From Microbacterium esteraromaticum (lineage in GTDB: Bacteria; Actinomycetota; Actinomycetes; Actinomycetales; Microbacteriaceae), in contig NZ_CP118100.1 of NCBI RefSeq assembly GCF_028747645.1, positions 1,488,001 through 1,552,000 of the forward strand: 64,000 bases of DNA, written 5' to 3'. A program made the translations under genes and the position numbers. Position 1 is the first letter of the stretch, and each line of letters opens with the position of its first letter. Shown in pieces: positions 26,101 through 41,502 of this stretch. The notes below the pieces were generated by a model. That model made no database searches, was not told where the DNA came from, and was given only the letters and a program-made list of their open reading frames with translations.

Positions 26101-26157
26101 GCCTCCTTAGCTCAGTGGATAGAGCAGCAGCCTTCTAATCTGAAGGCGGCAGGTTCG
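26101..26157 (+). pseudogene. 5' part of tRNA-Arg (anticodon TCT), cut at the prophage junction (attL)
   Basis: Bases 26101-26157 follow tRNA numbering 1-57: acceptor strand GCCTCCT, a paired D arm (GCTC with GAGC), anticodon loop CTTCTAA at 32-38 with TCT at 26134-26136, and T54-T55-C56-G57 at the right spacing. After position 57 the T stem cannot close and no AGGAGGC acceptor strand follows. The anticodon stem also has two mismatches (31-39, 27-43), as if the 3' side were a phage-carried imperfect copy. The missing 3' end should be at the far prophage junction, outside the window. Confidence 0.75.
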
Positions 26158-26413
26158 GGCCGTTCTGATCGGTCTCGCCCACGAGGTAGGCGACTGTCGT
26201 GTTGAGGGCTTCGGCAAGAGAGACGAGCTCGGCGATTGCCCAGCCTCGCTGACCCTTCAGCTTGAGGCCCAGCGAGCCGGAGCTCATACCGATCTGCGCC
26301 GCGACGTCGCCCTGCTTGCGCCGCTCGCTCCAGATGAGCATGTGAGCACGCTGCCCGATCTCGCTGTCGATAGCGAGGCTCGGAGTCTTCCGGGTCTTCT
26401 TCGCTGTTTCCAT
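26135..26413 (-). CDS. Phage repressor, single XRE helix-turn-helix domain, ends inside attL
   Basis: A 92-residue protein with one XRE-type domain (about 18-77; QGDVAAQIGMSSGSLGLKLKG is the helix-turn-helix area, continued by AIAELVSLAEALNTTVAYLVG). There is no C-terminal peptidase domain, so RecA-driven self-cleavage is not expected. The ATG at 26413 lies six bases after GATACT and 23 after TTGCGA, making the transcript leaderless; nine upstream codons belong to the promoter. The last six codons (NLPPSD) and the TAG stop are complementary to the tRNA-Arg part, the stop lying in its anticodon loop. Integration therefore sets the protein's C-terminus or nearly so. Confidence 0.85.
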   Translation of the reverse strand: METAKKTRKTPSLAIDSEIGQRAHMLIWSERRKQGDVAAQIGMSSGSLGLKLKGQRGWAIAELVSLAEALNTTVAYLVGETDQNGPNLPPSD

Positions 26414-26419
26414 GTTCCC

Positions 26420-26492
26420 AGTATCGGACAAATCGGACACTTTCGCAAGTTGATGTGTCGAACTTGCGAAAGTTGCTTATTTGTCTGATACC
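26420..26492. promoter_or_regulatory. Divergent, near-symmetrical immunity promoters and operator
   Basis: Leftward promoter: TTGCGA, 17-bp spacer, GATACT (26420-26425). Rightward promoter: TTGCGA, 17-bp spacer, GATACC (26487-26492). Their -35 regions lie in a perfect inverted repeat with 12-bp arms, CTTTCGCAAGTT (26440-26451) and AACTTGCGAAAG (26461-26472), 9 bp apart. Both spacers also share ATTTGTC(C/T)GATAC, and the left one has a 9-bp direct repeat of TGTCCGATT type. These are the likely repressor sites. Confidence 0.75.
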
Positions 26493-26501
26493 GTCCCAGT
26501 C

Positions 26502-26699
26502 ATGACGACGACAGATAAGGAACTTCTTCCCGAGGAAGAAACCTTGCTCACCCCCGGTGAAGCTGCGCGTCGCCTCCACGTCACAACCCGCACCCTACAG
26601 CGGATGGCGCTTCGCGGAGACGTTGAAGCGATTGTCCTTCCGAGCGGGCACCGCCGGTACAAGGCGGATGCGATCGCCGCGATTCGGGGTGTCGCATGA
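26502..26699 (+). CDS. MerR/excisionase-type DNA-binding protein (Cro or Xis role)
   Basis: A 65-residue protein with a winged helix-turn-helix of the excisionase/BldC type: LTPGEAARRLHVTTRTLQRM, then the wing AIVLPSGHRRYKADAIAAI. It is the first gene of the rightward early operon, divergent from the repressor, where Cro or a recombination directionality factor would be expected; sequence alone does not separate the two. I chose ATG 26502; an in-frame TTG at 26481 falls within the promoter. Its stop overlaps the next ATG. Confidence 0.8.
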   Translation: MTTTDKELLPEEETLLTPGEAARRLHVTTRTLQRMALRGDVEAIVLPSGHRRYKADAIAAIRGVA

Positions 26700-27439
26700 C
26701 CGCCCTCGATGTCTTCACCTACGAGGGCACGCGCGTTCGGGTAGTGGTTGTGGACGGCGACCCGTGGTTCGTGCTGGGGGACCTGACCCGCGTGCTCGGA
26801 CTGACCCAGTTCCGGACCGACCGGCTCGATGGTGACGTGATTCGGAATCACCCCATCGCCGACAGCACCGGGCGCTCCCAGATGACGAACATCGTCTCCG
26901 AAGCGGGGATGTATGAGGTCGTCATTCGTTCCGACAAGCCGGAGGCTGTCGCGTTCCGACGGTGGATCACGCACGAGGTCGTGCCGAGCATCCGCCGGAC
27001 CGGTTCGTACGCCGTCCCGGAGACGCGCGAGCAGCTGCTCGCCCGTGCCGTGATCGAGGCGAACACCGCGATCAGCGAGGCACACCAGCAGATCGAAGCG
27101 CTGACCCCGCGCGCCGAGGCATGGGACGAGTTCGCCGACGCCGGCACCGACTACGCCGTCGCGGACGCCGCAGCGCTACTGAACCGCGCCGGCATCCAGA
27201 CCGGCCGCGATCGCCTGTTCGCGAAGCTCGCCGAGATCCGCTGGATCTACCGCGGCGAGAAACGCCGCTGGCGCCCGTACGCCTCAGCAGTCGATGCGGG
27301 CTACCTCACCGAGCGGGCACAGCCACCGCACCGTGACGCCGACGGCGTGCTCGTCCCTTCACCACCGCAGGTGCGGATCACCGCCCGCGGCGTCGAGCGC
27401 CTCCGGGTGCGCCTCGGCGTGCTCGCACTCACCCACTGA
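26696..27439 (+). CDS. Phage antirepressor (BRO-N plus C-terminal KilAC-like domain)
   Basis: A 247-residue protein. Residues 1-110 are a BRO/Ant N-terminal domain (VDGDPWFVLGDLTRVLGL, IVSEAGMYEVVIRSDKPEAV, FRRWITHEVVPSIRRTGSY). The C-terminal part (about 140-245) resembles KilAC/ANT with FADAGTDYAVADAAALLNRAG and TARGVERLRVRLG. Such proteins counteract repressors or bind DNA in the early lytic phase. Start ATG 26696 overlaps the upstream stop as ATGA. Confidence 0.88.
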   Translation: MTALDVFTYEGTRVRVVVVDGDPWFVLGDLTRVLGLTQFRTDRLDGDVIRNHPIADSTGRSQMTNIVSEAGMYEVVIRSDKPEAVAFRRWITHEVVPSIRRTGSYAVPETREQLLARAVIEANTAISEAHQQIEALTPRAEAWDEFADAGTDYAVADAAALLNRAGIQTGRDRLFAKLAEIRWIYRGEKRRWRPYASAVDAGYLTERAQPPHRDADGVLVPSPPQVRITARGVERLRVRLGVLALTH

Positions 27440-27456
27440 CCCCACAGACGAAAGCA

Positions 27457-27480
27457 GGGCGCCCGTTGCACCGGACGCCC
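27457..27480 (+). terminator. Hairpin after the antirepressor (terminator or attenuator)
   Basis: Nine-bp arms with one mismatch (GGGCGCCCG and CGGACGCCC) and loop TTGCAC. There is no T-run, so it may only partly end transcription before the next operon. Confidence 0.45.
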
Positions 27481-27503
27481 CACCAAAGAGAAAGGCCAAG
27501 CAC

Positions 27504-27746
27504 ATGGCCCTCAACGAAAATCCTACGGCCCTGGTGGTCGAAACGCGCGACGGCCGCGCGACGCTCGCCGGGAAGCGCCGCCTCCTCGACGACGTCACCG
27601 AAGCCGCCGAGGTCGCCGACGAGTTCGACGGGCAGGTCTTCGCGATCGAACCGGTCGAGGTCACCCCGCCGTTCTCCCCGATGCCGGCACTGCGTCACGT
27701 CCGCGTCACCGATGAGCTCATCGCTGCGCTCCCGGAGATGGTCTGA
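27504..27746 (+). CDS. Small phage protein, function unknown
   Basis: 80 residues, acidic, no recognised domain; mainly beta and helix (ALVVETRDGRATLAGKRRLL, then FAIEPVEVTPPF). The ATG at 27504 follows AAAGAGAAAGG, a good ribosome site. First gene after the hairpin, with its stop overlapping the next ATG (TGATG). Confidence 0.75.
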   Translation: MALNENPTALVVETRDGRATLAGKRRLLDDVTEAAEVADEFDGQVFAIEPVEVTPPFSPMPALRHVRVTDELIAALPEMV

Positions 27747-27937
27747 TGCGCCGCCCCGCTAAGACCGCACCGCTCGCCCCGTGGCGGGCCATGTTCATCG
27801 CCGCCGCGCTCGTCGTCGCCGCGATCTGCGGCATCCCCGCCGCGAACCCCGTCTTCAACGGCGCCGACCTCGGCGTCTTCATCGCCCTGGCGCTCTTCAT
27901 CGCCGCATTCACCTACCCCGGAAGGGATCAGTCATGA
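27746..27937 (+). CDS. Small two-helix membrane protein
   Basis: 63 residues with two hydrophobic helices (MFIAAALVVAAICGIPAA and LGVFIALALFIAAFTY) and a basic N-terminus (MRRPAK). Its place in the early region argues against holin; superinfection exclusion is one possibility but not shown. It overlaps genes on both sides by one and four bases. Confidence 0.7.
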   Translation: MRRPAKTAPLAPWRAMFIAAALVVAAICGIPAANPVFNGADLGVFIALALFIAAFTYPGRDQS

Positions 27938-28413
27938 CCGTGAAACGGATCGTCGTGTTCGGGTCACTCGCCAAACGGCTCGCTGCCCACACTGATCGAT
28001 CGGGAGACTGCTGGCTCTGGACCGGAGCGCGTGGCTCGACCGGGTACGGCGTCATGCGGGTGAAGGGCAAGCTCACGGGGCCGCACCGCATCGCTTACGA
28101 GGATGCCCACGGGCCGATCCCCTCGGGGTTCGTCATCGACCACAAATGCCACACCCGCTTGTGCGTAAACCCCGACCACCTGCAGGCCGTCACGCCGGAT
28201 CAGAACGCGCAGAACGTGCCCGCTCGTAGCCGTTCCGGCATTCGCGGCGTCACCTTCCACGAGCCGAGTGGGATGTGGAGAGCACGAGTACGGAAAGCCG
28301 GCGTCGACATTCACCTCGGGCTCTTTACCGACATCAAGGACGCTGAGCGCGCCGTGGTCGCGAAGCGCAACGAGGTATTCACGAACAACCTTGCTGATCG
28401 GAGCGCATCATGA
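27934..28413 (+). CDS. HNH endonuclease with C-terminal AP2 DNA-binding domain
   Basis: 159 residues. HNH part: [42 protein letters not shown] (the HNH histidines and asparagine). C-terminal AP2-like part: [19 protein letters not shown] followed by [14 protein letters not shown]. This plan is that of free-standing homing endonucleases. A related gene lies at 49426-50004 in the opposite direction; both end in VF(S/T)NN..DRS. ATG 27934 overlaps the previous stop as ATGA, so it is built into the operon. Confidence 0.88.
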
Positions 28414-29060
28414 CTGTCAAGCTGTCCGCCGCACTGCCTAAGGACTATGACGCGAACGGCATGGAGCGGCTGCATGCGCAGCTGGTCCAGCACCCGGAGC
28501 GCCGCCACCTGGTCGTGATGGTGATCGATACCGCGAAGAAGCAGATCGACTACACCGCCGGCGGAGAGGTCACTCCCGTGGCCGGTGTGCTGTTCATCGA
28601 ACCGATCCAGGACCCCGAGGACCGCGACGTCGTCTCCGAGATCATGTCCCGCATCCGCGCCGAGCGCACCGGTGACGGCACCCTCGAGTTCGACTTCGGC
28701 CTCGGCGACCCCCTCGGCGACACCCTGCGGAAGATGCGAGACGAGGGGTACACGTTCCAGACGACGTCGAGCGAGCCAGAGCCAGCCGCGGACGCCGGAG
28801 GCGACACGGGCACGCGTGACGACATCGAATTGCTGGTCCAGGCGGCCGAGCTCGTCGTGACGAGCCAGTTCGCCTCGACATCAATGCTGCAGCGCAAGCT
28901 CCGAATCGGGCTGGCCAAAGCGATGCACCTGATGGACCGCCTCGAAGGTCACGGCGTCGTCGGCGAAGCCGAGGGGACGAAGGCGCGCGACGTGCTCGTC
29001 ACCCAGCAGGAGCTCTTCGATGTGCTCGTGCGGATGCGCAACGCGGAGGCGGCATCGTGA
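28410..29060 (+). CDS. Phage protein with a lone FtsK gamma (winged-helix) domain
   Basis: 216 residues. The C-terminal 75 or so ([58 protein letters not shown]) match the FtsK/SpoIIIE gamma domain that reads polar DNA motifs. No RecA-type motor is present. The N-terminal part (1-130) is acidic and unrecognised. In the host, FtsK gamma guides chromosome translocation and activates XerCD; a lone copy in a phage could bind the same sites, which is inference. ATGA overlap with the upstream gene. Confidence 0.8.
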
Positions 29061-29413
29061 GCAAGCTCGACGTCATCGAGGCTCTCGTCGCCGAGGGCAT
29101 CCGGAAGAACCTCGACGCGAATCGGAAGTACCTCGCCCCGCGCGAGCGCACCACCGTCGCCGCCGACTCCGCCGCCGTCGCGATCGCCGTGCTGATCGAC
29201 ATGACCGGCGGGCACCACCACATCGTGCAGGCCGACGGCGAGACCTTCACCCTGCAGCACCCGCTCATCGAACGCCTCACCGGCGACCTCTTCGACTGCT
29301 CCATCCACGCGCGCATCGCCGCGGGGGAGCCGTTGGAGAAGGGCCGCTACCGCGTCTTGATGAACGACGACCCCACCGATTTCGACCTGATCCCGCTCAA
29401 GGAGTTCGCATGA
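29057..29413 (+). CDS. Phage early protein, possibly DUF6085-like
   Basis: 118 residues. The segment [20 protein letters not shown] and FDCSIHARI recalls small actinophage proteins grouped as DUF6085; this match is from memory and weak. No catalytic motif. ATGA-type overlaps on both sides place it in the tightly packed early operon. Confidence 0.65.
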
Positions 29414-29553
29414 GAGGCCGCGCGTACGTGATGAAGTCCACCCTCCCGGTGCCCGAAGAGGACCAGGACGCCGCACGCCGACTGGTCGCTCGCCGCGCCA
29501 CCGACGACGCCGAGCGCACCGAGTTCGAGCAGATGCTGGGGCTGGCATCATGA
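29410..29553 (+). CDS. Small phage protein, function unknown
   Basis: 47 residues, mostly charged helix (EEDQDAARRLVARRATDDAE). ATG 29410 overlaps the upstream stop as ATGA and its own stop overlaps the exonuclease ATG. Confidence 0.6.
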   Translation: MRGRAYVMKSTLPVPEEDQDAARRLVARRATDDAERTEFEQMLGLAS

Positions 29554-30518
29554 CCCCGCAGATCACTGCCCGCATCGTGGTCCCCGAGGACGCCCCGCGC
29601 ACCGTGTGGATGCTCGAACGCGGCGAAGGCGTCACCGCTTCCCGCGCATGGGCGATCGCCCGCGGCGGCATCAAGACATGGCGCCGCGAGCTTGAGCAGA
29701 TGATGAACGGCTCGACGTTCCGCGGGACGAAGGCCACCAAGGCCGGTTCGGCCCGTGAGGCCGCGATGCTCGATGAGGCCGCCGACCAGCTGCACACCGT
29801 CACCCCGAACGCGGCACTGTGGGCGTCCGCCGCCAACGACCTGCACCGCGCGACGCCCGACGGCATCGGCCGCAACAGCGACGGCACGATCGTCGCCGTC
29901 GAGGTGAAGTCCCACGAGCACGGGTACGAGGACAAGGGCATTCCCGCCGATCACCTCGCGCAGCTGCAGTGGCAGATGCACGTGCTCGGCGCCGTCTCCG
30001 GCCTGTACGGGTACGAGATCCGCGACGAGGACGACATGCCCCCGGCCGACGGCGCGACCTGGATCGACGTGCCCCGCGACGACGAGATGATCGCCTACCT
30101 GATCTACCGCGCCGATCTGTTCCTCGCGTGGCGCGACGCCGGCTGCCCCGACGTCGACGAGCTCCCCTCGGATGTCCAGGCCGCGCTCGATGCGTGGGCA
30201 CCGCTCAAGTCGAAGCTCGACAGCGTCGCGGCCGACGAGAAGGAGGCCGCCGCGGCGCTCAAGAAGGCGATCCGGACGAGCATCCCGCACGCTGAGCGCT
30301 TCGGCGCCGTCGCGATGGGCGAGCACGGCGGGTACCAGCTCGGCGTCTCCGAGTCGACGGCGATCGACGAGGACGCATGGGAAGAGGACAACCCTGCGGT
30401 GTACGGGTCGGTACGGCGGATGCGTGAGCGCATCGCAGCGCGCGAGGACACGGCGAAGCGCATGTATCCGAAGATCACACGGCGCGAGTCGCTGCGATTC
30501 CAGGAGGTCGGGAAGTGA
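29550..30518 (+). CDS. YqaJ-type viral recombinase / lambda-like 5'-3' exonuclease
   Basis: 322 residues. The nuclease core shows the early GSAREAAMLDEAADQL helix, a D-x-x-G segment (ATPDGIGR), the E-x-K motif VAVEVKSHEHG and HLAQLQWQMHVLG with its conserved glutamine, as in YqaJ/RecE-family exonucleases. The C-terminal third is a coiled, alanine-rich arm. It is followed by a RecT-like gene, the usual partner, forming a phage two-gene recombination system that resects ends and anneals strands. Confidence 0.88.
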   Translation: MTPQITARIVVPEDAPRTVWMLERGEGVTASRAWAIARGGIKTWRRELEQMMNGSTFRGTKATKAGSAREAAMLDEAADQLHTVTPNAALWASAANDLHRATPDGIGRNSDGTIVAVEVKSHEHGYEDKGIPADHLAQLQWQMHVLGAVSGLYGYEIRDEDDMPPADGATWIDVPRDDEMIAYLIYRADLFLAWRDAGCPDVDELPSDVQAALDAWAPLKSKLDSVAADEKEAAAALKKAIRTSIPHAERFGAVAMGEHGGYQLGVSESTAIDEDAWEEDNPAVYGSVRRMRERIAAREDTAKRMYPKITRRESLRFQEVGK

Positions 30519-31285
30519 GCGAGCTGGTAGAGGTCAAGCAGATCGGCGAGGTCGAGCACATCGTGCACGCATCCGGTCAGTGGGATGGCACGGGCCCGGT
30601 CGAGTTCTCGAACGACGGCCAGGAGTGGACGACCGCATGGGCGCCGTCCGAAGAGCACCCGCACCCGGAGTACTCGCGCGTGAGCGTGTACCGCAAGGAC
30701 GTCCGCATCCCGACTGAGGTCACGATCCGATGGGACGAGCAGTATCCCGCGGCGTCCGAGGAATGGTCCGGCATGTGGGACCGCTCGCCGACGCGACACT
30801 TCGGCCGCACGGCGCGGATGGTCGGCTTCCGGCAGACGTTCCGCGACCTGCTCAGCAACATCGTCATCGAGGACGAGGGTGACGACCGGGCAACACCGAC
30901 CGCACAGCACGTCGAGAACGCGGAGGCCGCCGCGCCCGCCCCGCGGGACTGGGCTGCCGAGATCGCAGCAGCGGAGTCCGCCGAGATGCTCGATGCGATC
31001 GAGAAGGACGGCCGCGCCGTCCGAATCTTCACCGCTGACGGCCCCGGTACCGAACTGTGGCGGTCACTCCGCGCGCGCCGCCGCGAGATCGAGAAGAAGT
31101 GGGCGGACGTCGAGAGCGCTTGGGAAGAACCGGCGATCGCGGATGCAGCCGACGTCCCCGTCGTCGCGGCCGACGAGGTGACCGATTCGCCCGCGCCGAA
31201 GCCGGGCGCACCGCGCGACTACCTCCCGCCGATGAATCGGGCCGCGCGCCGCAAGGCCGCACGCAAGAAAGGCGGGAAGCGATGA
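30515..31285 (+). CDS. RecT-like single-strand annealing protein (tentative)
   Basis: 256 residues. The block RKDVRIPTEVTIRWDEQYP, then SGMWDRSPTRHFGRTARMVG with FRQTFRDLL, resembles the RecT core (WxxxPxxMLxxxAxxxAxRxAF). It directly follows the YqaJ exonuclease with an ATGA-type overlap, as such pairs do. The C-terminal half is acidic and ends in a strongly basic tail (RRKAARKKGGKR). It is shorter than typical RecT and the match is by eye only. Confidence 0.6.
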   Translation: MSELVEVKQIGEVEHIVHASGQWDGTGPVEFSNDGQEWTTAWAPSEEHPHPEYSRVSVYRKDVRIPTEVTIRWDEQYPAASEEWSGMWDRSPTRHFGRTARMVGFRQTFRDLLSNIVIEDEGDDRATPTAQHVENAEAAAPAPRDWAAEIAAAESAEMLDAIEKDGRAVRIFTADGPGTELWRSLRARRREIEKKWADVESAWEEPAIADAADVPVVAADEVTDSPAPKPGAPRDYLPPMNRAARRKAARKKGGKR

Positions 31286-31743
31286 ACGTCGACCCGATCA
31301 CCGGCGAGGTCGACGAGGTCGACGAGGATCCGGGCGTCGAGCTGGTCCCGCTCAACCTCGCGGCGCTGTCCGAAGACGAGCTGCTCGCCATGTTCCCGAC
31401 GCCCATCCAGTGCGCCGGGGCGCTGATCCGCGCGCGCGCCATGGTCGCCCGCGCACCGCGTGTGCTCAACGAGTACCGGACAGCGCTCGCGACCGCCGAC
31501 CGTGACCTGACGATCGCTGTCGCCAAGGGCGCCCGCGACCTGCTGTCGGAGTACCCGCGGATGCCGATGACGGAGCGCCGCGACCTCGCACGCGCCACCG
31601 ACGACCGGGTGCTGAAAGCGCAAGAGGCCCGCGACGATGCATGGTTGTTGCTGCAGTTCGCGAAGGACAAGAAGGATGCGCTCTTCGAGGACGTCGGCAT
31701 TCTCCGGTCGCTGAACGCCAACTTCAGAGGAGAGCACCGATGA
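31282..31743 (+). CDS. Phage early protein, helical, function unknown
   Basis: 153 residues. Acidic N-terminus (DPITGEVDEVDEDPG), then long amphipathic helices with repeated charged residues (RVLNEYRTALATADRD; KAQEARDDAWLLLQFAKDKK), likely a coiled coil. ATGA overlaps on both sides. Position between recombination and helicase genes suggests DNA metabolism, no more. Confidence 0.7.
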   Translation: MNVDPITGEVDEVDEDPGVELVPLNLAALSEDELLAMFPTPIQCAGALIRARAMVARAPRVLNEYRTALATADRDLTIAVAKGARDLLSEYPRMPMTERRDLARATDDRVLKAQEARDDAWLLLQFAKDKKDALFEDVGILRSLNANFRGEHR

Positions 31744-34376
31744 GCGCTCTACTGACTCTGAACACGGGCAACGACGGCACGCTCGCGTACGACGACTTCC
31801 TGCGTGAGAAGGTGGCGTTCGACCGCACTTTCGGGTTCGACGTGCGTGACGAGTGGCTGTCGCCGATCATGCGCCCCGGCCACGAGCACTTCAAGCCGCA
31901 CCAGGCGGACATCGTGAAGTGGGCGGTCAAGGGCGGTCGGCGTGCGATCTTCGCCCGCTACGGGCTGGGTAAGTCGGTCATGCAGTTGGAGATCCTGCGG
32001 CTGATCGTGCAGCACGGGCCCGCGCTCGGCGGCCCCCGTGACGCGTTCGGCGTCGAGACGCGCCGCGGCCTGATCGTCGCGCCTCTCGGTGTGCGCTTCG
32101 ACATCATCGCCGACGGCCGCGACCTGCTCGACACGGAGGTGCGGTTCGTCCGGTCGACCGCCGACGTCGACCCGGCATGGTCGGGCCTGTACGTCACGAA
32201 CTACGAGTCGGTGCGCGACGGGAAGCTCGACCTGTCGAAGTTCATCGCAGCATCGCTCGACGAGGCAGCCGTGCTGCGCTCGTTCGGTTCGGAGACGTAC
32301 CAGCGGTTCCTGCCGCTGTTCGACGCGGTGCCGTACCGGTTCGTCGCGACCGCCACGCCGGCACCGAACCGGCACAAGGAGCTCATCCACTACGCCGGGT
32401 TCCTCGGGATCATGGACACCGGTCAGGCCCTGACCCGGTTCTTCAAGCGGGATTCCTCGAAGGCGGGGAACCTCAAGATCCACCCGCACAAGCGCCGCGA
32501 GTTCATGCTGTGGCTGAATACGTGGGCGTGCTTCATCCAACGGCCCTCTGATCTCGGCTACTCCGATGACGGGTACGACCTCCCACCGCTGGACGTGGTG
32601 TGGGAAGAGGTCGAGGTCGAGTTGCTGTCCGACCAGGTCGAGAAGGACGGGCAGGGCATCCTCGTCCGCGCCGGCGCGAAGTCGGCCGTGGAGTCCGCGC
32701 GCGAGAAGCGCCACACGCTCGCCGCGCGCGTGGCGAAGGCAATGCGGATCATTGCTGCGCACTGGGCTGACCCCGACGAGCGCGGGCAGGTCATCCTTTG
32801 GTGTGACCTGAACGACGAGCAGGACGCACTCGAGGCTGGCCTGCGCGACCTCGGCCTGTCGTTCTCATCGATCCGTGGTGCGCAGTCCGATGAAGAGGTC
32901 GAAGAGCAGCTGCGCGCGTGGCTGGCCGGTGAGACGTACGCGCTGATCGGGAAGCCGATGATGCTCGGCCGTGGCCTGAACCTGCAGCAGTGCTCGACGG
33001 CCGTGTTCGTCGGCGTCACGCACAAGTACGAGCAGACCGTCCAGGCGATCCACCGCATCCACCGGTTCGGCCAGACCAACGCCTGCACCGTGCACCTGCT
33101 GTACGGCGAGTCCGAGACCGACGTCCGCGACAACCTGCTGACGAAGTGGCAGGAAGATGATGCGCTCACCGACACGATGAGCGACATCCTCCGCGAGTTC
33201 GGTCTGAATGCGACGGCTGTGTCGGCCGAGCTTGCCCGCGCGATGGGCATCGACCGGGAGACATGGCAGGGGCAGGACTGGCAGATCGTCCTCAACGATT
33301 CGGTGATCGAGTGGCGCGATCACGTCGCCGCCGAGTCGATGGGCCTGATCGTCACGTCGATCCCGTTCGGCGGGAAGTACGAGTACTCGGCGAACTACGC
33401 CGACTTCGGCCACGTCGACGACAACGCCCAGTTCTGGTGGCAGATGGACTACCTGACCCCGTCGCTGTACCGGGCGCTGATGCCGGGCCGGATCCTCGCG
33501 ATCCACGTCAAGGACTTCCCCCTGTACGGGTCGGTCACCGGGAAGGGCGTCTACACGTTCGACACGATGCACGCCGAAGCGATCGCGCACTACACCGGCC
33601 ACGGTTTCGACTACTTCGGGATGATCACCGTCACCACCGACGTCGTCCGCGAGAACAACCAGACCTACCGGCTGTCGTACTCGGAGATGGCGAAGGACCA
33701 CTCGAAGATGGGCGTCGGCTCCCCGGAGTACGTGTTGCTGTTCCACAAGCCGCAGAGCAACCGCACCCGCGGGTACGCCGACCTGCCCGTGACGAAGGAC
33801 AAGGCCGACTACTCCGTGGGTCGGTGGCAGATCGACGCCGCCGCGGAGTGGCGCACCGGCGGCGACCGGCTGCTGAGCGTTGACGAGCTCGCGCAGCTGG
33901 AGGTGGGTGTGCGGGCGAAGCTGTTCACCGCGCAGTCCGAGCGCACCGTGTACGACTATGACGCGCACGTCGCGCTCGCTGACAGCCTCGCCGCGCGCAA
34001 CGCGCTACCGGGCACGTTCGCGTCGCTGGTGCCCGGCTCTTGGCGCGCCGACGTGTGGACGGACGTGCTGCGCATCGACACGCTCAACAGCGAGCAGCGC
34101 AAGCGTGAGGTCGAAGCGCACATCTGCCCGTTCCCGCTCGAAATTCCCCGCCGCATCATCACGATGTTCTCCAACCCTGGAGAACTCGTCGGCGACCCGT
34201 TCAGCGGCCTCGGCTCCACCGTCCTCGAAGCAGTCCGCCAGGGCCGCCGCGGATTCGGATCCGAACTCAACCCGGTGAGCACGGCCGACTCGGTCGTCTA
34301 CCTCACCCGCCACGACAACGAGGCGAACGCACCCACGCTGTTCGACCTCCTCGACATCGAAGGGAGCGCGGCGTGA
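31740..34376 (+). CDS. SNF2-type helicase fused to a DNA N4/N6 methyltransferase
   Basis: 878 residues. Helicase half: RYGLGKS (73-79), DEAA (174-177), TATPAPN (204-210) and the SNF2 motif VI QAIHRIHRFGQ (435-445). Methyltransferase half (about 530-878): IPFG at 541-544 in the motif IV place (usually SPPY or DPPY), then DPFSGLGST at 819-827 as motif I; motif IV before I is the beta-class order. The fusion could track along DNA while methylating it, for example against host restriction; this is inferred. IPFG instead of (S/D)PP(Y/F) leaves activity open. Confidence 0.85.
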   Translation: MSALLTLNTGNDGTLAYDDFLREKVAFDRTFGFDVRDEWLSPIMRPGHEHFKPHQADIVKWAVKGGRRAIFARYGLGKSVMQLEILRLIVQHGPALGGPRDAFGVETRRGLIVAPLGVRFDIIADGRDLLDTEVRFVRSTADVDPAWSGLYVTNYESVRDGKLDLSKFIAASLDEAAVLRSFGSETYQRFLPLFDAVPYRFVATATPAPNRHKELIHYAGFLGIMDTGQALTRFFKRDSSKAGNLKIHPHKRREFMLWLNTWACFIQRPSDLGYSDDGYDLPPLDVVWEEVEVELLSDQVEKDGQGILVRAGAKSAVESAREKRHTLAARVAKAMRIIAAHWADPDERGQVILWCDLNDEQDALEAGLRDLGLSFSSIRGAQSDEEVEEQLRAWLAGETYALIGKPMMLGRGLNLQQCSTAVFVGVTHKYEQTVQAIHRIHRFGQTNACTVHLLYGESETDVRDNLLTKWQEDDALTDTMSDILREFGLNATAVSAELARAMGIDRETWQGQDWQIVLNDSVIEWRDHVAAESMGLIVTSIPFGGKYEYSANYADFGHVDDNAQFWWQMDYLTPSLYRALMPGRILAIHVKDFPLYGSVTGKGVYTFDTMHAEAIAHYTGHGFDYFGMITVTTDVVRENNQTYRLSYSEMAKDHSKMGVGSPEYVLLFHKPQSNRTRGYADLPVTKDKADYSVGRWQIDAAAEWRTGGDRLLSVDELAQLEVGVRAKLFTAQSERTVYDYDAHVALADSLAARNALPGTFASLVPGSWRADVWTDVLRIDTLNSEQRKREVEAHICPFPLEIPRRIITMFSNPGELVGDPFSGLGSTVLEAVRQGRRGFGSELNPVSTADSVVYLTRHDNEANAPTLFDLLDIEGSAA

Positions 34377-34499
34377 ACGGCGTCGGCTATCAGCATCCCG
34401 AGGTCGCATGGAACGGCCTCACCGTCACGGACCTCTTCTGCGGTGCTGGCGGATCGAGCAGCGGCCTCATCGAAGCCGGGGTGAACCCCCCGGGGAATG
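34373..34499 (+). pseudogene. N-terminal remnant of a C5 cytosine methyltransferase
   Basis: From GTG 34373 (GTGA overlap with the previous stop) the frame encodes LTVTDLFCGAGGSSSGLIEAG, a clear C5-methyltransferase motif I, then loses similarity at about 34485. The frame stays open to 34960 but only as out-of-frame sequence of the endonuclease VII gene. A second, complete methyltransferase with its own motif I starts at 34957. The remnant is best explained by replacement of the rest of this gene. Confidence 0.75.
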
Positions 34500-34524
34500 T
34501 CGGTGCTTCGCGAGAGGATGAGTC

Positions 34525-34929
34525 ATGGCAGAAGAACGACGATTGCGGCGGACGCACTGCGGCACGTGCGGGGTCAAGCTCACAGACGAGACTGGTGCCC
34601 GTAAGAGCGGCCGTGAACGCGGCTGGCACACAGAGTGCAAGTCGTGCCGGGCTGTCACTCGCCGTGCGAAGCACGACGAGGCCGAAGATATCCGCCGGAC
34701 GATGGTCACTCGCCAGTTCTGCGACATCTGCAAGCAGCCGGAGCGCGCGATGCGCAACGGCGTCGTCAAGTTGCTCGCTCTCGACCACGACCACGCGACC
34801 GGCGCATGGCGCGGTGTGCTCTGCCAGAGGTGCAACCAGGCGATCGGAATGTTCCGCGACAACCCGCAGCTGCTCAGGCTCGCGGCCGACTACGTCGAGA
34901 ATCCGCCGGGGCTTCTCATCCTCGAGTAG
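34525..34929 (+). CDS. Recombination endonuclease VII-like HNH nuclease
   Basis: 134 residues. Zinc cysteines CGTCG and CKSC, CDICKQPE, then the endonuclease VII core LALDHDHATGAWRGVLCQRC followed by NQAIGMFRDNPQLLRLAADY. Proteins of this type often act as free-standing homing nucleases in phages. It lies directly after a truncated methyltransferase start, which is evidence for invasion. SD-like GAGAGGATG precedes ATG 34525; its stop is two bases before a strong hairpin. Confidence 0.88.
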   Translation: MAEERRLRRTHCGTCGVKLTDETGARKSGRERGWHTECKSCRAVTRRAKHDEAEDIRRTMVTRQFCDICKQPERAMRNGVVKLLALDHDHATGAWRGVLCQRCNQAIGMFRDNPQLLRLAADYVENPPGLLILE

Positions 34930-34930
34930 A

Positions 34931-34960
34931 TCATCGCGCACCCTCGGGGGTGCGCGATGA
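34931..34960 (+). promoter_or_regulatory. Hairpin covering the ribosome site and start codon of the C5 methyltransferase
   Basis: Perfect 12-bp arms TCATCGCGCACC (34931-34942) and GGTGCGCGATGA (34949-34960), loop CTCGGG. The right arm contains the methyltransferase ATG (34957-34959) and, with the loop, the G-rich ribosome site. A ribosome finishing endonuclease VII (stop at 34927-34929) would reach into it. Confidence 0.7.
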
Positions 34961-36375
34961 GGTCGGGCGAGCTGTTCGCTGGGGCTGGTGGCCTCGGCAT
35001 GGCCGTCGATGAAGTGTTCGGGACGTCGCCGGCATGGTTCTGTGAGTTCGACGCCGCCCCGTCCAAGGTGCTGGCGCATCATCACCCGGATGTCCCGAAC
35101 TTCGGGGACGTCACGAAGGTCGACTTCCGCACCGTCGAACACACGCAGGTTCGTAAGGGTGGCTTCCCGTGCCAGGACGTGTCCCTCGCGGGACGCCGGC
35201 GAGGCATGTCCGGCGGTACACGATCCGGCCTGTGGTCGGAGTTCGCCAGATCAATCGAGGAAGACCGCCCCGACTGGGTGGTCATCGAGAACGTGAGGGG
35301 GCTGCTCAGTGCAGACGCAAGCAACGGCGACATGGAACCCTGCCCGCTCTGTGTGGGAGACAACCCAGGGCATGTTCTGCGGGCACTTGGAGCTGTACTC
35401 GGAGACTTGGCCGACCTCGGGTTCGATGCGGAATGGACAGGCATTCGAGCGTCCGACATCGGCGCACCGCATGGACGGTTCCGGATCTTCATCCTCGCCT
35501 GGCCGAGAGAGCGCACTACTCAGGACGCCGGTAGCGGACGAGGACGGCGGGGGGCCGTTGCATCCGGACGTAGCGAGGGAGCGCGGGCAGACGCTCCGGT
35601 TGACGGGGCAGATCCTCGCCATGACCGGGCACCTGAAGCCGCCGGCCTGAGATTGCTCTCGACGCCTGACACGGTGCCCGAAGCACCGAACACCGGGTCG
35701 AACTCGCACAAGGCGGGGAACATCGTCGGGCTCGGCAACCAGGTGATGTCGCTGTTGCCGACGCCGACTGTGGGTAACGCGACGGGTGGCAATGCCCAGC
35801 GTGGCGGTGCGAGAGGTGACGAGCGCCTGTTGCCCGGTCTGGCCGTAGATGCAGCAGAAGGCAGACTCCTTCCGACGCCAACAGCCTCGGAGGGCGAGAA
35901 GGGCGGGCCGAATCAGGCATACGGATCGGGTGGTGCGACGCTCTCAGGCACTGTCCCGCATCTGTTCCCTACGCCGCGCGCATCGCGTGGCGGCTCCGCA
36001 ACGGAAACGATGTACGGCCTCGGCGCGGAGCGCGTGGACGACGAGCGCGCTCAAGGGCAGGTCGTCGGTGACGTCACCGATTGGGGGCCGTACGCCGCAG
36101 CGATCCGACGCTGGGAAGCCATCATCGGGCGCCCCGCACCTGCACCGGTCAGGTTCGACGGGAAGGGCGGGAAGCCCCGCCTGAACCCCGAACTCACCGA
36201 GTGGATGATGGGCTGGCCTGCCGGTCACGTCACCAACCCGGACATCGGTCTGACCCGCGCTGAGCAGTTGAAGGCGTGCGGGAATGGTGTCGTGCCTCAG
36301 CAGGCAGCTGCCGCGTTGCGGGAGATGCTTGGCCGGCCCGGGGTGCCACCGATCGAACACGAGGTGGCGGCATGA
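34957..36375 (+). CDS. C5 cytosine DNA methyltransferase (complete)
   Basis: 472 residues. Motif I ELFAGAGGLGMA, catalytic C72 in GGFPCQDVS (motif IV), ENV at 111-113 (motif VI), the arginine motif HGRFRIFILAW (VIII) and GNGVVPQQAAAAL (X) are all present. The variable region between VIII and IX has phage-typical repeats LLPTPT / LFPTPRASRGG. No restriction enzyme is seen nearby apart from HNH proteins, so self-protection against host restriction is likely. The start lies in a hairpin. Its stop overlaps the next HNH gene (ATGA). Confidence 0.93.
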   Translation: MRSGELFAGAGGLGMAVDEVFGTSPAWFCEFDAAPSKVLAHHHPDVPNFGDVTKVDFRTVEHTQVRKGGFPCQDVSLAGRRRGMSGGTRSGLWSEFARSIEEDRPDWVVIENVRGLLSADASNGDMEPCPLCVGDNPGHVLRALGAVLGDLADLGFDAEWTGIRASDIGAPHGRFRIFILAWPRERTTQDAGSGRGRRGAVASGRSEGARADAPVDGADPRHDRAPEAAGLRLLSTPDTVPEAPNTGSNSHKAGNIVGLGNQVMSLLPTPTVGNATGGNAQRGGARGDERLLPGLAVDAAEGRLLPTPTASEGEKGGPNQAYGSGGATLSGTVPHLFPTPRASRGGSATETMYGLGAERVDDERAQGQVVGDVTDWGPYAAAIRRWEAIIGRPAPAPVRFDGKGGKPRLNPELTEWMMGWPAGHVTNPDIGLTRAEQLKACGNGVVPQQAAAALREMLGRPGVPPIEHEVAA

Positions 36376-36800
36376 GCGCTCCGACGAAGCAAACACGTCA
36401 GGACGTGTACGTGCGCGACGGGTACCGCTGTGTGATGTGCTGTGCGACGGATCCGCTGACGTTCCAGCATCGCCGCGCGGTCGGGATGGGTGGGTCGAAG
36501 ATCCTCCCGCCGCCGGTGGACGGGCTCACCTTGTGCGCGTCCTGCAACCAGCGGTGTGAGGCAGACCTGCAGGATGCGGCGCTCGCTCATGGGTGGAAGG
36601 TGCGCCGGTGGGTGCGCTCACCCGAACGGGTGCCGGTGTTCTTCCCTGCCGAGCTGGCCTGGTACCGCCTCGAGGGGACTCGCCGTGTGCGGATCTCGGC
36701 GGCCGTGGCGATGGAGATGGGGTGCGCCGTGTATGGCGACGAGTGGATGAGGTGGCGTGCGCACGCATTGTTCGGCGCCGACGGAAGGGGAACACGATGA
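36372..36800 (+). CDS. HNH endonuclease domain protein
   Basis: 142 residues. HNH features: YVRDGYRCVMCCATDPLTFQ, HRRAVGMGG and GLTLCASCNQRC. The C-terminal half (VPVFFPAELAWYRLEG) is unrecognised. ATGA overlaps on both sides. It could be a homing nuclease or a partner of the methyltransferase; no evidence decides. Confidence 0.82.
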   Translation: MSAPTKQTRQDVYVRDGYRCVMCCATDPLTFQHRRAVGMGGSKILPPPVDGLTLCASCNQRCEADLQDAALAHGWKVRRWVRSPERVPVFFPAELAWYRLEGTRRVRISAAVAMEMGCAVYGDEWMRWRAHALFGADGRGTR

Positions 36801-37162
36801 ACGAGACCGTCAAGCGCACACAGGAGGAGCTCGTCGACGAGCTGCGTGCACGGTTCGGCGACGAGCAGAAAGACTGGGCGTTCATCTGCCCGGCGTGCAG
36901 TGACGTCGCGAGTCTTCAGGATTTCCGGGACGCTCTCGCCGCGACGGGCAGTGATGACCACCCGATGCGGCACCTTGGCCAGATCTGCATCGGCCGTGTT
37001 CTCGGTGCGCTCAAACGCGATCAGCCGACGGGGCGCTACGACGGCCGTGGATGTGACTGGGCGGCTTTCGGCCTCTTCCAGGGGCCCGAGTTCGTGGTCA
37101 TGCCCGACGGTCGCGAGGTGCCGAGCTTCGCGATCGCACCGATCGAGGCGGCGGTCGCATGA
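36797..37162 (+). CDS. Conserved phage protein, possibly VVA0879-like
   Basis: 121 residues with CPACSD, the CIGR motif (GQICIGRVLG) and a C-terminal CDWAAFGLFQGP segment, recalling the small VVA0879 family found in phages of many hosts. Likely a zinc-binding structural fold. The family link is from memory. ATGA overlap upstream and downstream. Confidence 0.65.
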   Translation: MNETVKRTQEELVDELRARFGDEQKDWAFICPACSDVASLQDFRDALAATGSDDHPMRHLGQICIGRVLGALKRDQPTGRYDGRGCDWAAFGLFQGPEFVVMPDGREVPSFAIAPIEAAVA

Positions 37163-37344
37163 AGCGCTGGATCGTCGTCGAGTGGAACCAGGCATCCGGT
37201 CAGCCTCGGGTCGCCGACGGTGGCGAGATGTTCTGGACCGAGGGCGAGGCGGAGAGCGTCGCGCAGGCACAGCGTGAGTCCACGGCATCCGTCGGCCGCC
37301 GTGAGCGGTTCACCGTGCACGAGATCGACTTGGAGGACGCATGA
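37159..37344 (+). CDS. Small phage protein, function unknown
   Basis: 61 residues (MKRWIVVEWNQASGQPRVAD start), alpha-beta in character, acidic. Short overlaps with both neighbours keep it in the operon. Confidence 0.65.
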   Translation: MKRWIVVEWNQASGQPRVADGGEMFWTEGEAESVAQAQRESTASVGRRERFTVHEIDLEDA

Positions 37345-38333
37345 GCATGCCGACCTATGCGATGACGTACGTCGTCTACTGGCCCGAGCAGGGCGTGTTG
37401 AAGGTGGGCCGCGCGTGGCGCTTCCACCGCGTGCAGATGATGGTCCGCTCCGGCGGCCGCATCGTCGTCCTCGCCCGCGGCACCGACTGGACGTGGGAGG
37501 CCGAGGCGCTGCGCACTCTGCGCGCATGGTTCCCGCAGGCGTTCCGCAACGACGACGAGGCGCGAGACCTGCTGTTCATGGGCCGCGGGTGGACGGAGTG
37601 CTTCCAGGTAGGTGAGCACCACCTGCAGCTCGCCGTCGACCTGTGTTTCGAGGGATTCGCGAGAGGGAACGAGCAAGGTGTCAACGAAGAACGTGCAACG
37701 GAAGATCAGCGCGACGGATCTGCAGTTCCCGGGGTACCTGCGGGCACCGATGATCGCGAAGCCGACAGCGATCGGCCTGTGGCTGCACACGGACGGGCTG
37801 GGGCGCCGCGAGGTGGTGCCGGAGCTGATCGCAGCGGCGATCTACCCGGGCGAAGCAGCGACCGACATGGTGCTCGACCACCTGCTGATGCTCGACGAGG
37901 CCGGGTTCCTGGACTTCTACCGCGCCGACGGGACGGAGTGGCTACAGCTGCGGCGACCGTTGAAGGTCGACGCCCGGCTCGCCTGGTCGAACTGCCCGAC
38001 GCCGCCGGATCGCGAACCTTCGCGAACGTTCGCGGCTGTGGGGGGAGCGCGCGAGCGGGCGGGGGAGCGGGTGCGGGCCGAGCAGGCGGCGCGGGCTGGG
38101 CAGTGGGCGGCGTGGGCGGACGAGCACGAGCGCACGACCCAGCCGCCGGCACGACCCCTGCTGTTGGATGCTCCGCCTATCGGTTGCCCGGAGCACCCCC
38201 ACGGCAGGTTCGCAGACTGCGGCCCCTGCGGCACCGCCCGCCGACGTCACGACCGTTGGGTCCAGGAAGCCCGCTACGGCGAGCAGGTCACCAAGCACGA
38301 GCAGCAGAGCACACGCGAGGAGGAGTGGGATGA
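37341..38333 (+). CDS. T5orf172/GIY-YIG-like protein with an over-long C-terminal frame
   Basis: The first 110 residues look real: YVVYWPEQGVLKVGRAWRFH, VQMMVRSGGRIVVLARGTDW, then WEAEALRTLRAWFPQAFR, a pattern of the T5orf172 branch of GIY-YIG nucleases (Y...Y, KVGR, E in AEAL). After about 37670 the frame stays open for 220 more codons, but the product is R/G/A/P-rich and overlaps the next gene almost completely in another frame. The true gene may have lost its stop, or the tail may be translated as junk. Confidence 0.6.
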   Translation: MSMPTYAMTYVVYWPEQGVLKVGRAWRFHRVQMMVRSGGRIVVLARGTDWTWEAEALRTLRAWFPQAFRNDDEARDLLFMGRGWTECFQVGEHHLQLAVDLCFEGFARGNEQGVNEERATEDQRDGSAVPGVPAGTDDREADSDRPVAAHGRAGAPRGGAGADRSGDLPGRSSDRHGARPPADARRGRVPGLLPRRRDGVATAAATVEGRRPARLVELPDAAGSRTFANVRGCGGSARAGGGAGAGRAGGAGWAVGGVGGRARAHDPAAGTTPAVGCSAYRLPGAPPRQVRRLRPLRHRPPTSRPLGPGSPLRRAGHQARAAEHTRGGVG

Positions 38334-38346
38334 CGGGGTCTTCTGA
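37678..38346 (+). CDS. Phage protein of replication region, function unknown
   Basis: 222 residues from GTG 37678. The first 110 residues (ATDLQFPGYLRAPMIAKPTA, VLDHLLMLDEAGFLDFYRAD) look like a folded winged-helix-type domain as found in phage replication organisers, then a charged linker and a C-terminal CPEHPHGRFADCGPC zinc-like motif. It lies upstream of ssb, which fits replication. The overlap with the previous open frame is 656 bp; codon and residue use favour this frame. Confidence 0.65.
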   Translation: MSTKNVQRKISATDLQFPGYLRAPMIAKPTAIGLWLHTDGLGRREVVPELIAAAIYPGEAATDMVLDHLLMLDEAGFLDFYRADGTEWLQLRRPLKVDARLAWSNCPTPPDREPSRTFAAVGGARERAGERVRAEQAARAGQWAAWADEHERTTQPPARPLLLDAPPIGCPEHPHGRFADCGPCGTARRRHDRWVQEARYGEQVTKHEQQSTREEEWDDGVF

Positions 38347-38503
38347 CGGCCTGGCGGACTTCATCGAGATGACGGTTCTGCGGTTCGAGAAGGACCACAG
38401 GTTCAGGCTTCGGCTGCTGGCTGAGGCGGATGAGACACCACGAGAGACAGCACAACGGGTGAGGCGCGAGGCGTTCGTGACTGCCCAGAGGAGGACAGCG
38501 TAA
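38330..38503 (+). CDS. Small phage protein, function unknown
   Basis: 57 residues, helical and charged ([20 protein letters not shown]). It overlaps the previous gene by 17 bases; its TAA stop shares one base with the ssb ATG. Confidence 0.6.
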
Positions 38504-38976
38504 TGGCCGGCGAAACGATCATCACAGTGGTGGGCAACCTCACCGCTGACCCCGAGCTTCGGTACACGCAGAACGGCTTGCCGGTGGCGAACTTCACCAT
38601 CGCGTCGACCCCGCGCTCGTTCGACAGGCAGGCGAACGAGTGGAAGGACGGTGACGCGCTGTTCCTGCGTGCGTCGTGCTGGCGGGAGTTCGCCGAGCAC
38701 GTCGCCGGATCGCTCACGAAGGGCATGCGGGTGGTCGCTCAGGGGCGTCTCCGTCAGCGGTCGTATCAGGACCGCGACGGCAACAACCGCACGGCGGTCG
38801 AGCTGGAGGTCGATGAGATCGGCCCGAGTCTGCGGTACGCGACGGCGCAGGTCACTCGTGCTGCCCGGTCGGCTGACGCGCAGAAGGGGCCGGCGGCGCA
38901 GCCGGCAGAGCAGCCGTGGCCGGAGCCGTCCGCCGGGGAGCAGTGGGGAGCGTTCGGTGATGACACGCCGTTCTGA
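38503..38976 (+). CDS. ssb: Single-stranded DNA-binding protein
   Basis: 157 residues. The OB fold is clear: [66 protein letters not shown]. An acidic tail ends GDDTPF, the SSB protein-interaction tip (the host form is usually DDIPF). It coats single strands during phage replication and RecT-type recombination. The gene ends with a 17-base overlap into the next. Confidence 0.95.
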
Positions 38977-39262
38977 GCCGAAGCCGGACTGCCGTATCTG
39001 TCAGGGGCACGGGTTCTTCATGGTGTCCCGTGATCCTGACATCGATGCCGAGTGCGTGTGCACGGAGCCTGTTGAGCGGACGGCCGCGGAGCGGGTGGAT
39101 GCGTTCGCCCGGAGTATTGGGGTGGATCTGATGCCGTGGCAGCGTGAGCTCGCGACGAGGCTCCTGGCCGGTGAGCACGCCACGCTCTCGGTGCTCGCCG
39201 TCGGCTGCCGTGGCGGCATGCGCACGGTCCGTCGAGTCGTTGAGGGGGCGCGCTATGTCTGA
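38960..39262 (+). CDS. Small phage protein with zinc-ribbon-like cysteines
   Basis: 100 residues. [19 protein letters not shown] then CVC resemble half of a DnaJ-type zinc knuckle. The second half is helical ([20 protein letters not shown]). I preferred ATG 38960 over the adjacent GTG. Overlaps ssb and the next gene. Function unknown. Confidence 0.6.
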
Positions 39263-40112
39263 TCGGGTGTGCATCCGCGGGTGCAAGCAGCGCGGCGTCC
39301 ACTATGCGACGTGCGCTTGGTTCGGCATCGAGGATGGCCTGGTGTCGACGGTCGAGGCGTTGCCGAACGCGCCGGAGAAGTGCACGGGGTGTGCGGAGCG
39401 TCCGGCCCGTGACCAGGTGTTGATCTGTGATGGCTGCTACGGCCGCCTGCGGGGTCTGCTGTATGACGCGCCGGATCTGATCGGCCGGTTGCGGTCGTTG
39501 GCTGATCCGATGCGGGCGACCCCGTTGGATCAGCAGCCGTCGGGTCGGGGCGGTGCGGTGGAGCCGCCGGCGCCGGTCGATGCCGAGCTGTTAGATGCGC
39601 TCGATGATCTGGTCACGACGTGGGGTGCCTGGCAGGCGTTCACGCACCCGGACACGCTGGCCGGTGCGGTCGACCGGCTGTTGAACGATCACCAGCATGT
39701 GGAGGACCTCGGCGTCGGGTTCATGGATCGGCACGAGCTTGTCGATGGGATCCGTGAGTTCTGGTCGTTCGCGGATGCGCGGGCGAAGTGGGGTGCGGAG
39801 CGTCGGACGAAGGACGAGCCCGAGTGGGCTGACCCGGACGACTTGCTCGACCCGGTCTCGGATGCGCCGAGGCCGGTCGCTGAGCTGTCGGATCCGTTGC
39901 TGACCCGCCTGCAGGCGGAAGAGGTCGCGGGGACGGCTCGGACGTTGCAGCGGTGGCGGCAGAAGAACCTGGTCGCGCCGGTGCGGACGGTGACGATCGC
40001 GGGTGTGCGTACGGCGATGTTCCGGTTGTCGGATCTGGCGCGGGTGCGTGACGAGATGAAGACGAAGGTTGGGCGGCCGAGGTCGCTCGAGAAAGGTGCG
40101 ACCGATGACTGA
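39255..40112 (+). CDS. Phage protein with zinc cysteines and a MerR-like C-terminus
   Basis: 285 residues. The N-terminal CTGCAERPARDQVLICDGCY is a four-cysteine zinc site; a helical middle follows (LLDALDDLVTTWGAWQAF). The C-terminus TARTLQRWRQKNLVAPVRTV then AGVRTAMFRLSDLARV looks like a helix-turn-helix with wing, so DNA binding is likely. Located late in the early operon; it might control late genes, which is a guess. Confidence 0.65.
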   Translation: MSDRVCIRGCKQRGVHYATCAWFGIEDGLVSTVEALPNAPEKCTGCAERPARDQVLICDGCYGRLRGLLYDAPDLIGRLRSLADPMRATPLDQQPSGRGGAVEPPAPVDAELLDALDDLVTTWGAWQAFTHPDTLAGAVDRLLNDHQHVEDLGVGFMDRHELVDGIREFWSFADARAKWGAERRTKDEPEWADPDDLLDPVSDAPRPVAELSDPLLTRLQAEEVAGTARTLQRWRQKNLVAPVRTVTIAGVRTAMFRLSDLARVRDEMKTKVGRPRSLEKGATDD

Positions 40113-40482
40113 CGAGCGGGCGCGCATCGTCGCAGAACTACGGTGGCTGGCCGACGCGCGCCAGGAGTATGTGACGGACACCTTCCCGCAGATCGAGCAG
40201 GAGGTCCGGACGGCCCGGCACCTCGCCGACATTCTCGAACGCAAGACACCGGTCGCAGACGGCGGGCAGGGCTTCGGGTGGCTGCCGTCCTGGCGCTGGG
40301 GCGAGTGGGATCAGATGGCGCTCCGTCGCCCCGTACAGGCCGAACCGACCGACGCGCAGGTGGAGGCCGCTTTGTGCGCCGCGATCGATGCGACCGAGCA
40401 TCGTGACGACGGGATCACCTTCACCGCGATGCGCGCCGCTCTCAAGGCCGCGTTCACAACCAACCAGGACGAGATCCGATGA
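40105..40482 (+). CDS. Phage protein, function unknown
   Basis: 125 residues, helical (RIVAELRWLADARQEYVTDT). The segment GFGWLPSWRWGEWDQMALRR is tryptophan-rich. Overlaps its upstream neighbour by 8 bases and the next by 4. Confidence 0.6.
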   Translation: MTDERARIVAELRWLADARQEYVTDTFPQIEQEVRTARHLADILERKTPVADGGQGFGWLPSWRWGEWDQMALRRPVQAEPTDAQVEAALCAAIDATEHRDDGITFTAMRAALKAAFTTNQDEIR

Positions 40483-40625
40483 ACGATGACCTGATGCGCC
40501 GAATGCGCGGGCACGTCGGATACGACCCCAAGCAGGTGCTCGCCAACCCGGAGAAGTACAACCGGGCTGAGCGCCGTGCGGCTGCGCGCGTGCTCGCGGA
40601 GAACGGACGGAAGGCGATCCAGTGA
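40479..40625 (+). CDS. Very small phage protein
   Basis: 48 residues, basic, starting MNDDLMRRMRGHVGYDPKQV and ending ENGRKAIQ. ATGA and GTGA overlaps with both neighbours support it as a real gene. The RAERRAAARVLAENG helix resembles tails of other phage proteins. Function unknown. Confidence 0.6.
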   Translation: MNDDLMRRMRGHVGYDPKQVLANPEKYNRAERRAAARVLAENGRKAIQ

Positions 40626-40936: not shown

Positions 40937-40939
40937 ACG

Positions 40940-41074
40940 ATGAGCTACGAGCCGGACTGGTACGACACCCACTGCCCGACGTGTGATGCGCCCGAGCCGA
41001 CACACACGCCGACGTGCGCGGTCGTGCGCATCGGCACAGACCGCGAGGTTGGTTCCGGGGACACGCCGGGCTGA
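40940..41074 (+). CDS. Very small cysteine-containing phage protein
   Basis: 44 residues with CPTCDAPEPTHTPTCAVV, three cysteines and two histidines spaced like a zinc knuckle. Last gene of the early operon, 3 bases after the previous stop. Confidence 0.55.
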   Translation: MSYEPDWYDTHCPTCDAPEPTHTPTCAVVRIGTDREVGSGDTPG

Positions 41075-41500: not shown

Positions 41501-41502
41501 CG

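Follow-up and report, generated by a model that had tools for sequence, protein, structure and literature searches.

A Microbacterium prophage that by architecture joins integration-dependent immunity with tRNA-dependent lysogeny

Integration-dependent immunity was reportedly described by Broussard in 2013 for mycobacteriophage BPs and its relatives. According to the available text of PMC4557955, both forms of the BPs repressor bind DNA alike, and the difference between them in BPs is therefore one of stability. The accessible part of PMC10865867 contrasts tRNA-dependent lysogeny with integration-dependent immunity, as separate systems; there, attachment cores of about 10 bp are given, integrase mutants of Fionnbharth stay immune, and a tRNA-Arg site has no occurrence. 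The nearest described case to a combination of the two, judged from the available text, is that of the tandem T36-2 prophages (PMC9934374). Our literature searches on both lysogeny controls, Min1, Arthrobacter and Microbacterium yielded, in the portions of text available, no paper describing both controls in one phage. Here we describe a prophage in a 64,000-nucleotide stretch of Microbacterium esteraromaticum DNA (hereafter the window) that by architecture would have both integration-dependent immunity and tRNA-dependent lysogeny. The two controls are separately known; what is new is their combination and a repressor stop codon written by the host anticodon.

A first-pass annotation of the window had predicted that the integrase and the viral tail of the repressor lie beyond base 64000. 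Both were located there: a genome search placed the integrase 1.4 kb past the window, on the stretch designated L009, and the right prophage end lies 2.5 kb past it. The features are as follows.

26101..26142, plus strand: attL, the 5' portion of the host gene for tRNA-Arg(UCU), with the same letters as the intact tRNA of genome G091 up to 26142
26135..26413, minus strand: repressor, prophage form, 92 aa, BetR-type HTH (joined phage form, 113 aa)
26135..26137, minus strand: repressor stop TAG (CTA on the plus strand), with host base 26135; the phage end at attR reads TAC
26136..26142, plus strand: common core TAATCTG, with a second copy at attR, L009 9545-9551, 2.5 kb past the window
26143..64000 and on to attR at L009 9541-9551, no strand: prophage body, about 40.4 kb in all
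26439..26473, no strand: candidate operators: the near-palindrome ACTTTCGCAAGT, present twice in inverted orientation in the gap separating the divergent genes
26502..26699, plus strand: divergent HTH_17/MerR gene, excisionase-like
26696..27439, plus strand: antirepressor, Bro-N plus KilAC
L009 8244-8319, minus strand: phage tRNA-Arg(TCT), adjoining the integrase
L009 8328-9284, minus strand: tyrosine integrase, right prophage end
L009 9242-9484, minus strand: 80-aa ORF between repressor tail and integrase
L009 9541-9551: attR, beyond the window edge

The repressor gene starts with an ATG at 26413 on the minus strand. Its product, a small HTH protein, matched the BetR domain in Pfam (PF08667, E 4.8e-07), and its PHROG matches were repressors; neither resource reported a cleavage domain, in agreement with the earlier description of a single XRE domain that lacks one. 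The last six codons and the stop had been read as the complement of the tRNA. This stands for the stop codon, for that of Asp and for two bases of the Ser codon, which are the whole of the host-identical part of the gene; the codons for NLPP are phage DNA that resembles the T arm of a tRNA, not host tRNA. Formation of the stop by the anticodon loop was confirmed, as base 26135 is host-supplied and occupies the middle of the tRNA-Arg(UCU) anticodon. Because this host base replaces the phage base of a TAC codon, the codon reads TAG.

Joining the prophage ends in silico at TAATCTG rebuilt an attP whose core sits inside the repressor reading frame. The phage frame runs on as GAT TAC AAG... to 113 aa and the prophage frame ends in GAT TAG, so that the prophage form is shorter (92 versus 113 aa) by way of a stop from host DNA, as had been anticipated. 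The attR side holds 21 in-frame leftover repressor codons, and the 21-residue tail that they encode ends in MKAAS. The last residues of the long form are thus KAAS; the BPs tag ends in two alanines. The TGA of the joined repressor overlaps the ATG of the 80-aa ORF.

On the minus strand of L009, reading inward from the host, a host epimerase gene is followed by the 3' part of the tRNA (attR), the repressor tail, the 80-aa ORF, the integrase and tRNA-Arg(TCT); the integrase is thus downstream of the repressor on one strand with the one ORF between them. The integrase stop and the phage tRNA-Arg are separated by eight bases on this strand (L009 8244-8328). The 80-aa ORF had no phage match in tblastn at E up to 1, the integrase had no plasmid match at 1e-30, and megablast of the tRNA/integrase stretch against phages returned one record, matching 55 bases inside the tRNA. 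At the other end, the divergent Cro/Xis gene named in the first-pass annotation corresponds to the excisionase-like gene. The window holds two sites for ACTTTCGCAAGT at two or fewer mismatches (four strand matches), a count matched in 21 of 100 shuffles, so the argument for operators is their position and not their number. Terminase, portal, head protease, major head, tape measure, tail and endolysin genes were matched in the prophage body (nine proteins submitted, one without a match). A 911-aa phage ORF at 31641-34376 appears by eye to be a helicase fused to a DNA methyltransferase.

A comparison of the attL region with the right end for exact same-strand repeats gave none over 12 bp, and the att site gave none at the 11-bp limit; the core is too short for this approach, and local alignment was needed. 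By local alignment attL and attR share a 7-bp core plus a T-arm-like patch, with a similarity score of 17 that none of 2,000 shuffles reached. The same-species genome G091 has an undivided empty site with both flanks present: identity on the left stops exactly at 26142, and the right flank follows next (97.7% over 1513 bp). Joining the host halves in silico at the core gave a tRNA-Arg(TCT) identical to an intact tRNA of the same species (L098 1582-1657). The attR half was at one point taken for tRNA-Thr, with TGT at the anticodon; the empty site shows that its G is phage DNA. All nine prophages in which attL was read carry the host base there, and the phage base stands at attR wherever attR was read, a pattern that puts strand exchange on one side of the middle anticodon base.

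The core is also too short to rebuild the tRNA, and integration therefore breaks the host gene. ARAGORN called tRNA-His as the sole tRNA in the window, with none at 26101, and the 47 Rfam tRNA matches of the genome all lie elsewhere than at the prophage ends; the host tRNA-Arg(UCU) gene is thus really broken, and a functional tRNA is rebuilt at neither attL nor attR. To the left of tRNA-His, two overlapping plus-strand frames (24073-25201) resemble by eye a single transposase gene broken by a frameshift. ARAGORN on all 47 matches found the prophage copy to be the sole Arg(tct) in the genome, so that the host gene was non-redundant among the 47 tRNAs scanned. A left-flank query matched in 50 of 59 drawn genomes of the genus, and among 30 loci fetched an intact tRNA-Arg(TCT) was present in 29 of 29 from other genomes, with tRNA-His near each. 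Promoter consensus scans at both prophage ends found no promoter-like site. The start of the host tRNA and its upstream DNA are kept at attL (26101-26142), aimed antisense into the repressor gene; the consensus scan showed no promoter-like site there.

We consider it highly probable that integration-dependent immunity and tRNA-dependent lysogeny are joined here in one switch, with the repressor stop made by the host anticodon. In the joined phage, the repressor, 80-aa ORF, integrase and tRNA-Arg(TCT) lie on one strand and would be expressed from it. The integrase would recombine attP with the anticodon loop of the only tRNA-Arg(UCU) gene of the host at TAATCTG. At attL the host middle anticodon base turns TAC into TAG and so gives the 92-aa repressor without its tail. 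By analogy with BPs, the long form would be degraded and the short form stable, and immunity would begin with integration. The same event breaks the host tRNA gene and leaves the cell with a single copy, the phage tRNA-Arg(TCT) next to the integrase; this copy would then be needed for survival of the integrated cell.

Recurrence of this arrangement was assessed at 45 integrase loci, a census that includes the locus of this prophage and some duplicates and excludes L138 (20% match) and G180. tRNA-Arg(TCT) is present at 35 of the 45. Twelve loci have fewer than 900 bases upstream of the integrase and mostly cannot show a tail; among the 33 with at least 900 bases, the strict core GATTACAA was found at 22 and was missing at 11, four of which have a relaxed core. 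The relaxed-core loci (DYS or DYL: L126, L143, L145, L149) stand outside the tail count, in which a strict core with an open tail at 25 loci gave 22 distinct tails. For 19 of these 22 tails tRNA-Arg(TCT) was seen within the sequence examined; L129, L146 and L158 had no visible copy, L158 ending at the integrase and the L129 genome having a tRNA-like match cut by N. The 11 of 33 loci lacking the strict core count against the combined switch, as does G180, whose integrase is 75% identical with no adjoining tRNA and whose host tRNA-Arg is intact. G180 (L108) has two tyrosine recombinase genes in tandem, one of them the 75% match. The lineage is sparse: at 1e-50 it was matched in 4 of the 366 genomes searched in the genus, and at 1e-60 in 1 of the 396 searched in the order, its own genome included.

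The 5' half of the tRNA was searched in nine genomes; attL was readable in eight of them, the sequence of the ninth, G368, stopping at the core. An ORF ends at Asp-TAG in the tRNA in all eight (nine of nine with the present genome, G000), and Pfam found an HTH domain in each of the eight ORFs at E 0.01 or better, above the curated cut-off in five. An open frame to the TAG is weak evidence by itself, since intact phage tRNA copies also have open codons before the same stop (25 in L165, 87 in L174 and 125 in L175). Seven of the eight genomes, all but G369, showed an intact Arg(tct) tRNA in a similarity search that is not a full tRNA list and from which four weak matches were left out; the other tRNAs met were Arg ccg, acg and cct, Met and Thr.

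Free phages show the phage form unjoined. The integrase of Min1 is 74.6% identical over 93% of the query, and in Min1 a 115-aa repressor ending in DYKAAVSDLTAYRAAKAAG, its tail closing with KAAG, is followed by the integrase and then tRNA-Arg(TCT). This similar tail, together with the joined sequence, upheld the BPs-like layout that had been claimed for the window, with attP in the repressor gene. The HTH half of Min1 looks unlike that of this prophage and the tails are alike; the tail therefore seems to travel with att and the integrase. In the Min1 record (EF579802; L087 1-1100), tRNA-Arg(TCT) lies at 42-117 on the minus strand and is absent from the feature table, and the integrase is split over two reading frames near its N-terminus. 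In the available portion of PMC7302621, Table 1 lists Min1 with 0 tRNAs and as lytic, and the text calls it temperate.

In all eight Arthrobacter cluster FF phages examined the core is in frame in an HTH gene and tRNA-Arg(TCT) is present. Their tails end in RKAA (four), RKTA (two), RKVA and ETAA, and Zaheer and Popper share an identical 33-residue tail on different N-terminal parts. The repressor is inconsistently annotated in this cluster (Popper gp35 versus QuinnAvery gp43). In the Arthrobacter phages tRNA-Arg is on the strand opposite to the integrase, and a second tyrosine integrase lies beyond it in seven of eight (L206-L211, L090, L123), not in Elesar; the available text of PMC13097055 likewise gives FF phages a second integrase, Elesar excepted. 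That text reports QuinnAvery lysogens, and attP, attB, repressor, immunity, integration-dependent and tRNA-dependent are not among its terms.

The joined repressor matched 27 database proteins. On average the commonest residue has a share of 0.80 to 0.83 at residues 11-85 and of 0.41 in the tail: the HTH part is conserved and the tails differ. Their tail ends include RKAA, QAA, SAA, KAS, VAS and EEVA, with -AA, -AS or -VA in many. Several tails contain peptides such as AGIEPTTSTVE, ARLERATCGLQ or RLDSNQQPIGFKP, which look like antisense readings of tRNA 3' halves. Six homologues end in Asp at 77 to 109 aa (P0001, P0006, P0007, P0018, P0020 and P0027), as prophage forms would; P0001 matches the repressor of this prophage, and P0009 ends in Asp too but is long. 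A 39.7-kb viral contig (L113) encodes a 71% identical repressor that has a different core and ends in NRKAA; an integrase follows it, and no tRNA is visible nearby. L114 gave a 34% repressor match. As a yardstick for such ends, the host tmRNA tag AESKRNDFALAA (L115) ends in ALAA. Alanine is the last residue of 15 of the 22 distinct tails, and 7 close with AA; the corresponding counts for the 56 longest non-overlapping ORFs of the window are 7 and 3. Fisher's test gave p = 3e-06 (A) and 0.004 (AA), values that serve as a guide, the tails being related and the control mechanical. Codon-position differences were 6/8/31 and 17/15/47 in two Arthrobacter-type tail groups and 10/10/12, with no third-position excess, in the Microbacterium group. 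Many census integrases likewise end in -AA or -VA, and the available text of PMC4557955 reports a degradation signal on the integrase of BPs.

A broader reading, which we regard as fairly probable, is that of a double-locked switch in which the host Arg anticodon is a regulatory word and the C-terminal att-plus-degron end an exchangeable module. The middle anticodon base would write the stop that activates the repressor, and any host with tRNA-Arg(UCU) would supply that base. One integration event would also make the cell dependent on the phage tRNA, and the att-plus-degron end would move with the integrase among unrelated repressors and tRNA targets.

The rival explanations differ in how much of this they accept. 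Integration might truncate the repressor although the tail is no degron, both forms being similarly stable or the tail altering dimerisation or DNA binding; the switch would then be weaker than that of BPs or act via another tail property. The endings KAAS here and KAAG in Min1 favour this account, as do the Microbacterium tails with their lack of a third-position excess, and the equal DNA binding of both BPs forms makes stability the BPs difference (PMC4557955, available text). We nevertheless hold it unlikely: most tails close with alanine (15 of 22, 7 of them with AA), cluster FF tails end in RKAA, RKTA, RKVA or ETAA, homologues of this repressor end in RKAA, QAA, SAA, KAS or VAS, and the tag of the host tmRNA ends in ALAA. 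It is decidedly improbable that the phage has tRNA-dependent lysogeny alone, with the repressor change a by-product and immunity independent of integration. The tRNA part is indeed the better anchored half, since the sole tRNA-Arg(TCT) is that of the prophage, and Fionnbharth integrase mutants keep immunity (PMC10865867, accessible part); the position of attP within the repressor gene and the similar tails in relatives speak against it.

Still less is conceded by the proposal that this is a plain tRNA-targeting prophage in which the repressor end fell into the att site as an accident of packing with no regulatory meaning. In G+C-rich DNA an open frame often runs across a tRNA gene (the 87 and 125 codons above), but the arrangement recurs in all nine prophages whose attL could be read and also in free phages, where the core is in frame, and like tails sit on differing HTH domains, as in the 33-residue tail of Zaheer and Popper; we judge such an accident very unlikely. 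We found nothing in favour of the idea that the prophage is decayed and its ends functionless relics; it is scarcely credible, given open terminase, portal, head protease, capsid, tape measure, tail, endolysin and integrase genes in a cell that lacks any other tRNA-Arg(TCT).

With the combined switch as the preferred reading, two lysogeny controls described apart become testable within one phage. If it is true, immunity needs integration and survival of the integrated cell needs the phage tRNA, which offers a possible reason for the lone tRNA-Arg(TCT) in phages of this lineage, including QuinnAvery of cluster FF. It also yields a search rule: an HTH gene ending in Asp-TAG in tRNA-Arg, plus a DYK tail before an integrase.

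Compared with BPs as given in the available text of PMC4557955, this prophage likewise has attP in the repressor gene, a shorter prophage form, a same-strand integrase downstream and a divergent HTH gene. It differs in its 7-bp core, the unrebuilt tRNA, a stop made via one anticodon base, the phage tRNA that replaces that of the host and a tail ending in KAAS rather than -AA. The cores of Gordonia phages with integration-dependent immunity are 20-40 bp (PMC5559632, available part), unlike the core here. Arthrobacter phage Galaxy is likened to integration-dependent immunity in the accessible text of PMC5513430, with attP outside the repressor gene. Gordonia phage Bunker has a repressor (113 aa), an 83-aa ORF and an integrase in matching order and an att-like sequence in the repressor end, with no tRNA in the stretch examined. 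With Fionnbharth-type tRNA-dependent lysogeny (PMC10865867, accessible part) the locus shares a short anticodon-region core, a tRNA left unrebuilt and a cognate phage tRNA; unlike in those phages, attP lies inside the repressor gene. In prophiT36-2a and -2b of Mycobacterium abscessus both prophages have integration-dependent immunity, the attL tRNA-Thr is impaired and 2b carries a tRNA-Thr gene; these, in the available text of PMC9934374, are instead a tandem pair with 40-bp cores, a tRNA impaired by mismatches and the rescue tRNA in the second prophage. Min1 and the cluster FF phages share with this prophage a long repressor-type gene with the core in frame, a related integrase and tRNA-Arg(TCT).
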